Source: a virus. Taken from it: a stretch of DNA of 27,966 nucleotides. The notes below the pieces were generated by a model. It had not been told where the DNA came from and did not search any database. It saw only the letters and a program-made list of their open reading frames with translations. Positions 7,689 to 10,005 of the stretch are shown one piece after another. The position numbers and the translations under genes were made by a program. Positions within the stretch are counted from its first letter, which is position 1, and each line of letters starts with the position of its first letter. The DNA lies in the IMG/VR virus record IMGVR_UViG_3300013128_000027, positions 1 to 27,966 of that record. One strand, written 5' to 3'.

Positions 7689-8132
7689 ATGACAGCATCT
7701 ACAGGGATTACCACGATAAGCAATCTAGCTCCAGAAATGCCTTTGCAAGCTAGTGAAGACTTATTGTCAACCCCAATGTTTAACCTCATTTTCTCCTTCG
7801 GTGCAGATCTGCACTTTGCGGAAGCCTATATGGGCCGCACAGTCCGTCTCAGCCGTTTTGAGAGATTGTCTACTGACGGCGGTCAGCTTGATGGTTCTGG
7901 TATTGATCCAGCACCTGAAGTTCCCGTTCGTTCAGATGTAGACGCAACTGTTGAGATCTATGGCAAAACCATAGTGACCAACGAGCAGGTTGCGCTCTTT
8001 GAAAATAGCAAAACGTTAACGAAGTTTACCGCTCTCCTTGGTCAGTGGCTGAGAGAGAAGGAAGACCTCTTAATGAGAGACCTTTACGCTAGCTCAGCGT
8101 CGTACATTAACTGTACGGGTGGAGTTAACGGT
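7689..8132 (+). CDS. Major capsid protein, exon 1 (148 codons)
   Basis: First exon of a capsid gene split by two group I introns. Joining 7689-8132, 8367-8708 and 9829-10005 gives one 320-aa protein, a usual length for an HK97-fold, N4-gp56-like shell protein. Exon 1 supplies the N-terminal arm (S-N-L-A-P-E-M-P-L-Q-A), the E-loop region (G-R-T-V-R-L-S-R-F-E-R-L) and the spine helix (L-L-G-Q-W-L-R-E-K-E-D-L-L-M-R-D-L-Y), ending N-C-T-G-G-V-N-G. Start at ATG 7689; a TTG 12 nt upstream is in frame but less likely. Without splicing the frame runs 18 codons into the intron and stops at 8186. Follows the scaffold, as expected for a shell gene. Confidence 0.85.
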
Positions 8133-8366
8133 AGAATGATTGCCGTTATAAAATCTTTGGTGATGGACTCGAAACTCGCAGCGTGAAAGACGGCGATAAC
8201 GAGGCGCAAGCAGGGAAACCATGCAGCGTGAACGTAGCAAGCCCAGAGACCCAGAAATGGGATGCAGTGCTCTGAACAGTCGGGAAACCGATTGAGGGAA
8301 GTGCAATAGGCTTCCTCGCCAGTAGGTAACATTTTGTAACCAACTGGTCATAAAGTAACAGAAAAG
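8133..8366 (+). ncRNA. Group I self-splicing intron 1 in the capsid gene (no ORF)
   Basis: A 234-nt intron. P1: exon AACGGT (8127-8132) pairs with internal guide GCCGTT, giving five Watson-Crick pairs and the required U-G at the 5' splice site. P10: the next exon's GATCA (8367-8371) pairs with TGATT (8137-8141) just ahead of the guide. The core has TAACGAGGCGCAAGC (8197-8211) and GCAGCGTGA (8223-8231), both shared with intron 2. P7 is AAGCC (8239-8243) with GGCTT (8309-8313), enclosing a stem AGTCGG/CCGATT. The last base is G8366, after AAGTAACAGA. Removal joins exons 1 and 2 in phase. Confidence 0.88.
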
Positions 8367-8708
8367 GATCAACCCTCGGAGATCTCTCGTTCTGATGTGA
8401 ACAACATCGAGAGGATCTTACTTGGTAACGACGCCAGGTCTATGTTGGAAGTAATCGAAGCCGAAAATAAATTCGGCACGTCTCCAACTAGAGATGCTTT
8501 CCTTGCGCTTGCAAGTACGGATATCACATCCGATTTGCAAAACGTATCAGGAGTGCTTCTCAAGAACGCTTATCCTTCACAAGAGGGTCTGCGTCCTGAA
8601 GAGTATTGCTCGATTTCGCGCTTTAGATTCTTCGTGTCTTCACGGGGTATCAAAGTTCCGAATTCGTCCATGCTCGGAGCGAACGTTTATAAAGTCCCAA
8701 TGTTCGGT
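8367..8708 (+). CDS. Major capsid protein, exon 2 (114 codons)
   Basis: Begins D-Q-P-S-E-I-S-R in the frame joined by splicing at 8132/8367 and ends V-P-M-F-G at 8708. It carries the central alpha/beta region of the shell protein, including the I-E-R-I-L-L-G-N-D-A-R-S-M-L helix and the F-R-F-F-V-S-S-R-G-I-K-V-P-N strand pair of the A-domain/P-domain. A naive call from GTG 8397 would miss its first ten codons and would run past the true exon end (Q-A-A then stop) into intron 2. Confidence 0.82.
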
Positions 8709-8886
8709 CAAGCAGCTTAGCCGAATTAAAACCATCTCTAATTGACTCGGAGGCCCGATGGGGTAACGAGGCGCAAGCGAAAGCAGCGTGAGAGACTAAA
8801 CGAGATGGACTCTGCAAAGAGTATGCAATAGTCCGATCCACTCGAATATATGAAGGAGTGGAGGCTGACAGAAATGATCAGTCCGC

Positions 8887-9786
8887 TTAAACACCTTTTT
8901 GATTTAGGGCTTTGACCTTATGGTAAATGTCATTCTTAAGAAGCAAGATGGAATCTCTCCAAGAATAAAAATCTTTGGCAAGACTTCCTTTTCTCTTCCT
9001 GCTGATATCTATAAGTCTAAGAACTTCCTTGGCCTGTTCAGATTTATGAACAAGATGAGGAAGAGTCCTTTTCAAGATTTCTTCGAGATTTTTGCCAGAT
9101 ATATGAAGATCAAGAATGGAACTATGGAGATTGTATCTTCCTTTTTCAAGGAAAAATACATTTCCTCCAAACCGTTCCATCATCCATTTAATAACAGGAT
9201 ATTTTGTGTTTCCACATCTTATATAAGGTCTAAAACACAAATATTTCCCATGTGCTTTTCTTTTATTGATGCATATGCAGCACTCTGCGTCTATAAATCC
9301 AGACATATATTGATAGTCAGTTTCAGATGGCTCGATTGTATTTTTCAAAAGATTCATTTCTTTTGGGAAATTTTCGTATGCAGGATTTTGTCCTCTCTGA
9401 ATTTTTATCAATTTTACAAGTTGATTTCTTTTGCAAGGTTCAAATTCCTTAAAGTTCATGCAAGTCAAGCATTGATCTTTTTTCTCTATAAGAAATGGCA
9501 AAATATTTTTAAGAAATCCGTCATTCGGAACGTTTTTCCTGTAAAGGAAAAGTTGTGCTTGGTTTTCGATAATCTTCTTATGTTTATAAATAGAACCACC
9601 AAAGTTTTCTTTTATAAAATTAAGACATTTTATTTGTTTTCCACATATCGAAATTTGACAAAGGTAATCTGTACATTTTACTGGAGATATTTTTCTTCTT
9701 CTTTCTCTTTTGGAGACGTTCAGAACGAAACTTCCGTCTCCATCTATGTATCCAGCAAGATAAGGAAAAGGTTTATCTTTTTGCAT
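8887..9786 (-). CDS. LAGLIDADG homing endonuclease (antisense, inside intron 2)
   Basis: A 299-aa protein with two LAGLIDADG motifs: L-A-G-Y-I-D-G-D-G at residues 10-18 and M-S-G-F-I-D-A-E-C at 161-169. Both catalytic acids (D17, E168) are present, so it looks like an intact single-chain double-motif enzyme that cuts intronless capsid alleles to spread the intron. It is highly basic, as is usual for DNA-binding nucleases. Unusually it runs against the host gene. It has its own candidate promoter in the intron tail: TTACTT, 17 bp, TACAAT (plus-strand 9793-9821), with the ATG only about 7 nt beyond the -10 and no clear Shine-Dalgarno. A plus-strand frame over the same bases is its shadow. Confidence 0.92.
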   Translation of the reverse strand: MQKDKPFPYLAGYIDGDGSFVLNVSKRERRRKISPVKCTDYLCQISICGKQIKCLNFIKENFGGSIYKHKKIIENQAQLFLYRKNVPNDGFLKNILPFLIEKKDQCLTCMNFKEFEPCKRNQLVKLIKIQRGQNPAYENFPKEMNLLKNTIEPSETDYQYMSGFIDAECCICINKRKAHGKYLCFRPYIRCGNTKYPVIKWMMERFGGNVFFLEKGRYNLHSSILDLHISGKNLEEILKRTLPHLVHKSEQAKEVLRLIDISRKRKGSLAKDFYSWRDSILLLKNDIYHKVKALNQKGV

Positions 9787-9792
9787 AGGTAT

Positions 9793-9821
9793 ATTGTACA
9801 GTCATTTAAGTTAAAAAGTAA
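9793..9821 (-). promoter_or_regulatory. Candidate promoter for the antisense endonuclease
   Basis: On the minus strand, TTACTT and TACAAT are separated by 17 bp and face the endonuclease start. The bases also belong to the intron 3' end, so the element does two jobs. Confidence 0.4.
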
Positions 9822-9828
9822 CAGATTG

Positions 9829-10005
9829 TTAGAAGCCACTTCCAAAATCGAGCAGAACACTTACTCAGCCGTTGTAGGATATCGCCCACCATGGGTTGTA
9901 TCTTCTGTGGCTCAGAACTGTCAGCTGTACGCTAAGTTTGCACTCGCTCGCGCGATTACAAACCAAAACTGGCTGTCAGGACTTAACTGTACACAAAGAC
10001 TGTAA
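9829..10005 (+). CDS. Major capsid protein, exon 3 (58 codons plus stop)
   Basis: Begins L-E-A-T-S-K-I-E-Q after the intron's terminal G9828 and ends L-N-C-T-Q-R-L. It completes the shell protein with G-Y-R-P-P-W-V-V-S-S-V-A-Q-N and a long helix (Y-A-K-F-A-L-A-R-A-I-T-N-Q-N-W). Position 9829 is the only in-phase junction near here that follows a G. The frame upstream is open only because it shadows the endonuclease gene. Confidence 0.82.
   Translation, partial: LEATSKIEQNTYSAVVGYRPPWVVSSVAQNCQLYAKFALARAITNQNWLSGLNCTQRL

Follow-up and report, generated by a model that had tools for sequence, protein, structure and literature searches.

The window analysed here, that is, the whole stretch of 27,966 bp, is a complete IMG/VR virus record with terminase, P22-like portal and tail genes. 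Its major capsid gene lies at 7689-10005 on the plus strand and is interrupted by introns at 8133-8366 and 8709-9828. Exon 1 (7689-8132) supplies 148 codons and ends in AACGGT, exon 2 (8367-8708) supplies 114 codons and ends in TTCGGT, and exon 3 (9829-10005) supplies 58 codons and the stop. Joined, they make 963 nt, or 320 aa plus stop, with both junctions in phase 0. The joined product matches the major head protein family phrog_1357 (2.4e-8), and the best 80 of 198 IMG/VR relatives are 75-82% identical to it, continuously across both junctions. When the capsid genes of 16 relatives are aligned with the window, two gaps and no others appear, one at 8132/8367 and one at about 8708/9829; the other window genes that these 16 relatives cover show no insert.

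An earlier note on this DNA had placed both introns to the base and had proposed that splicing restores a 320-aa protein, with phase-zero junctions, that should align with capsid families. Exon joining, the guides and the unbroken relatives agree on these boundaries, the joined protein was reproduced, and both the phrog_1357 match and intronless homologues that span the junctions bear it out. From this anatomy it follows that capsid output would be tied to RNA splicing. Hundreds of copies of the capsid protein are required per particle, so efficient splicing would be demanded.

Two group I introns and an endonuclease gene

Intron 1 (8133-8366, plus strand) is 234 nt long, has no ORF and ends in AAGTAACAGAAAAG; intron 2 (8709-9828, plus strand) is 1120 nt long, has its core between 8711 and about 8880, and ends in AAGTAACAGATTG. 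At each 5' splice site the last exon bases pair with a guide within the intron to form a P1 helix of 7 bp with a U.G pair at the splice site: AACGGT (8127-8132) with GCCGTT (8142-8147) for intron 1, and TTCGGT (8703-8708) with GCCGAA (8720-8725) for intron 2. Shuffling gave guide pairing as good in 0 of 5000 cases for intron 1 and in 133 of 5000 for intron 2. The strand TGATT at 8137-8141 provides intron 1 with a P10 of 5 bp, and the P10 of intron 2 is weak; P10 is not a universal trait of group I introns. Both introns terminate in AAGTAACAGA followed shortly by a final G, and the core words TAACGAGGCGCAAGC and GCAGCGTGA are common to the two and recur in other phages. The guide pairing with its U-G, the shared core words and the common 3' ends had all been described from the sequence before, and all were found again.

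Introns from these phages, 58 in all and including those of the window, were aligned, and a covariance model, R1, was trained on 30 introns with the window and its sister contigs excluded. R1 finds intron 1 at 8133-8336 (101.8 bits, E = 3e-27) and intron 2 at 8711-8898 (138.2 bits, E = 2.5e-37), with no further significant match in the window. In the training alignment, 97.3% of the cells of 40 pairs (P3 to P9 and the P7 pseudoknot) are paired, and there are 274 double changes, compared with 75 in shuffles. The covariation signal is lost when the pair partners are shifted by 1-3 columns, and all seven of the seven P3 pairs show changes on both sides.

At gathering and at relaxed thresholds, Rfam gave no group I match in the window, so that neither intron matched RF00028, and five further loci from this family were likewise without a match. 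Thus, the covariance-model search suggested in the earlier note fails with the Rfam model and succeeds, for both introns, with a model made from the introns of other phages. An RF00028 match is not a defining feature, however, because the capsid intron of mycobacteriophage LittleE, which is known to be spliced, also falls under the cut-off (30.7 bits against the Rfam group I model, where the gathering cut-off is 50). R1 does match the LittleE intron (34 bits, E 2e-8, compared with more than 100 bits for the window introns), and the window introns are therefore called group I. The guides, the R1 matches and the covarying core together uphold the proposal that group I introns split this capsid gene; as such, both inserts would be expected to splice themselves out.

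Intron 2 also contains an ORF that the earlier note overlooked. It lies on the minus strand at 8887-9786 and encodes an intact, two-motif LAGLIDADG protein of 299 aa, which matches PF00961 in two stretches (9e-13) and phrog_5046 (7.7e-33), and matches solved LAGLIDADG enzymes weakly. The family assignment suggests that the protein is a homing endonuclease. The ORF occupies the loop of a terminal hairpin whose arms, as read from the sequence, are CTTAAA (8886-8891) and TTTAAG (9805-9810). Such an antisense LAGLIDADG gene is present in 26 of the 31 motif-bearing large capsid introns surveyed. A promoter scan for the antisense gene gave matches no commoner than expected by chance.

Intron content of near-identical genomes

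The sister contig L088, which comes from a different IMG data set, matches the window with 99.6-99.8% identity over most of its own 8.1 kb. In its capsid gene, intron 2 is present and intron 1 absent, and a 245-nt intron sits at 7990/7991, 142 bases upstream of the intron 1 site. The guide of this intron fits its own site exactly, and the intron clusters with those that L190 and L195 hold at that capsid site. Once spliced, the capsid proteins of the two genomes are identical. The 20 coding differences between them are all silent and lie beside the two polymorphic sites: six fall in a tract of 86 nt around 7990/7991 (7964-8049) and 14 in a tract flanking intron 1 (8132-8441), at position 8132 and within 8372-8441. 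The remaining 7.6 kb or so of the alignment contains only five differences.

Co-conversion of flanking sequence is an expected trace of homing (PMC2988022), and tracts of silent differences at the polymorphic sites are the pattern that it leaves. Presence or absence combined with co-converted flanks is seen for intron 1 and for the intron peculiar to L088; intron 2 is present in the sister contigs L085 and L088 and common to all sister contigs. The near-identical genomes thus have different intron sets and the same protein, so the introns appear to have moved recently. Intron movement seems to have been caught in nature here, with the conversion tracts still visible.

The capsid gene of this uncultivated tailed phage very probably holds two mobile group I introns that were acquired independently; each is expected to self-splice, and the second has its own endonuclease gene. 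In vivo, the last exon bases would pair with the intron guide around the U.G, a guanosine would attack after the U at the 5' splice site, and the freed exon end would then attack after the last G of the intron, giving the mRNA for the 320-aa capsid protein. Intron 2 would have its own means of homing in the gene on its opposite strand. Intron 1 lacks such a gene, so it was probably brought in with its flanking sequence when a co-infecting phage served as donor in gene conversion; a trans-acting endonuclease, or one since lost, would have driven the transfer. No donor phage for intron 1 was found.

The conversion tracts show that exchange took place and are silent on its direction. It is thus possible, though unlikely, that the window lineage did not gain intron 1 and that L088 lost it and gained another intron, through gene conversion involving phages whose capsid genes are intronless or interrupted in other ways. 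Introns of this type are found in none of the 80 loci of the closest relatives, so intronless donors must be common. However, the same observation makes the intronless capsid gene the usual state in close relatives, which favours gain.

Considerably less probable is an assembly chimera, in which the different intron content of L088 would reflect no real movement. The sequences are metagenome contigs, and another sister contig, L210, stops at its position 8766, 20 bases inside intron 1, as a variable site would break an assembly. Such an end is also as expected if the population is polymorphic for intron 1, and a mixed population with both forms is the biological claim in any case. Moreover, the L088 intron carries a guide that fits its insertion site exactly and is a member of the lineage of that site, and every flanking difference is silent, an outcome not expected of random joining.

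The earlier note had suggested that two introns of one type in one gene arose by copying within the gene, and the core words TAACGAGGCGCAAGC and GCAGCGTGA do occur in both. This origin is scarcely credible and the suggestion has to be given up: the introns share 53.6% identity with each other, whereas each shares 68-69% with introns from other phages, the intron tree places them in separate clades, the same core words turn up again in other phages, and L088 has intron 2 without intron 1. As splicing of both inserts is deduced from sequence, the inserts might also be imagined to stay unspliced, leaving the capsid gene inactive or making separate fragments, but exact guides, an intact ribozyme core and 20 of 20 coding differences from L088 that are silent within one identical spliced protein make this extremely improbable.

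Across its 5' splice site (8703-8719), intron 2 shares 17 bases (TTCGGTCAAGCAGCTTA) with the first short insert of L087, which lies at a different capsid site, hinting at possible movement between similar target sites.

The wider family and its short inserts

A spliced profile alignment that covered 151 capsid loci gave 142 inserts, distributed over 62 of them; most loci past the first 80 were located by their intron pattern, so that these insert frequencies are biased. Within its phage family, the capsid gene is a hotspot for introns, with insertion sites that recur from one member to another. The same intron family also interrupts genes for other coat proteins, for portals and for ribonucleotide reductase, the gene names at unnamed loci coming from a reading of the translations. 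R1 finds unannotated introns in three deposited genomes: MW202674, in a P22 coat gene given as two CDSs (L305; 135 bits), OR420741, Roseobacter phage CRP-118, in a ribonucleotide reductase gene also given as two CDSs (L304; 110 bits), and PV686213, a crAss-like Bohxovirus (L306; 74 bits). Current tools thus miss these introns: Rfam gives no match, and the deposited coat and reductase genes are annotated as two.

Intron-bearing related capsid genes are also found in MAGs labelled Chlamydiia, Parachlamydia and Simkania (L217, L218 and L220), and others lie in unrelated MAGs. A host link with the chlamydial labels is possible; phage contigs are often misbinned in MAGs.

The lengths of the inserts are bimodal, with 26 at 25-61 nt and then a gap up to 195 nt. 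Twenty short inserts in 19 loci (two sites in L087, and one each in L097, L099, L107, L109, L111, L113, L114, L118, L137, L139, L143, L171, L172, L189, L190, L195, L207 and L211) follow an exon that ends in U, end in G themselves and contain a guide. Further mini-introns are present in capsid loci of MAGs (L217, L219, L220, L221 and L222). Overall, they are 29-66 nt long, too short for a catalytic core. Nineteen of the 20 have both a P1 (6-9 bp) and a P10 (3-6 bp), and for these only 0-1 of 5000 shuffles of the insert score equally well with the boundaries kept; the mini-intron of L172 has a P1 but lacks a P10 under the scoring used, and by itself it falls short of significance. P1 covaries between homologues, being GUCGAU/GUCGAC in L118 and GUGGAU/GUCCAC in L189. 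In the 13 of the 20 with a resolved frame, read-through leads to a stop or a frameshift and excision restores conserved capsid sequence.

A full intron starts after 26-66 nt of downstream exon in 19 of the 19 cases with downstream sequence, for which the chance is about 0.20 each. Among bacterial-MAG capsid loci picked regardless of introns, five of ten have mini-introns, each followed after 27-84 nt by a full intron. Among 80 other relatives chosen by protein only, a ranking that favours unbroken genes, 78 have no insert and none has a mini-intron.

The simplest reading of this arrangement is that one core removes both elements. It seems probable, though well short of certain, that the mini-introns are coreless group I introns of 29-66 nt, with a P1 containing U.G, a P10 and a terminal G, which are excised by the core of the full intron that follows after 26-84 nt of exon, a single ribozyme thus serving two introns. 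In L083, the mini-intron at the capsid site of L087 is enlarged to 950 nt (about 1289-2238) by a sense-strand LAGLIDADG ORF in the P1 loop, and R1 detects no catalytic core there; given such an element, coreless introns may themselves be mobile. If correct, guide-only mini-introns would represent a new mode of intron persistence, in which the address label is kept and the enzyme of a neighbour borrowed, and the reach of group I catalysis over distance would become directly testable.

Two other accounts of the short inserts were set aside. Bypassing of the T4 gene 60 type relies on take-off and landing codons that match on either side of the gap. The mini-introns have a GGT take-off followed by AAG, TTG, ATG and others before the resumed frame, with no matching landing codon, and the inserts of L190 and L195 split a codon. 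Skipping of the exon across a mini-intron and the following full intron would remove a small exon that encodes conserved capsid residues. Calls at profile positions 69 (L083) and 286 (L183) were not accepted as mini-introns.

A different kind of insert occurs near capsid residue 116 in L137, L176, L179 and L209, where 4 nt (TATG, TTCG, TACG and TTCG, respectively) follow CTCCGT and shift the capsid frame; other phages hold a full intron at this place. A possible pairing partner for ACUCCGU lies in the exon about 80 nt downstream (GGCGGAGT). The 25-28-nt 'introns' called at profile positions 107-109 in the same four loci are aligner artefacts of the 4-nt inserts.

Comparison with known introns

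The introns of the window are a known kind of element, and something new appears in the wider family, in the mini-introns. The literature searched, with subscription papers and preprints largely outside it, gave no precedent for coreless or helper-dependent group I introns. The mini-introns thus look new; the window itself, though in the same family, has none.

The closest parallel to the window is the major capsid intron of LittleE, for which splicing was shown by RT-PCR and which was called most likely group I (PMC3706429; JF937101). It contains an opposite-strand endonuclease ORF likened to LAGLIDADG (PMC3706429). Intron 2 of the window resembles it in being a group I-type intron of a major capsid gene with an antisense endonuclease ORF. 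However, LittleE is an unrelated phage with one capsid intron rather than two, and the sequence similarity is distant. Two group I introns in one phage gene, as in the capsid gene of the window, have been described for nrdE of Staphylococcus phage Twort (Landthaler et al. 2002, cited in PMC3984707). The gene there encodes a ribonucleotide reductase rather than a capsid protein.

In T4-like phages, introns that have no ORF or a defunct one are mobilised by endonucleases acting in trans (PMC3984707; PMC2988022). This provides a model for the spread of the endonuclease-less intron 1, with the flanking exon co-converted, although the window revealed no endonuclease cognate to the site of intron 1. 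By the R1 model, the introns of MW202674, CRP-118 (OR420741) and PV686213 belong to the same family as those of the window. They lie in other genes and in other phages, and one of these phages, CRP-118, has a named host strain.
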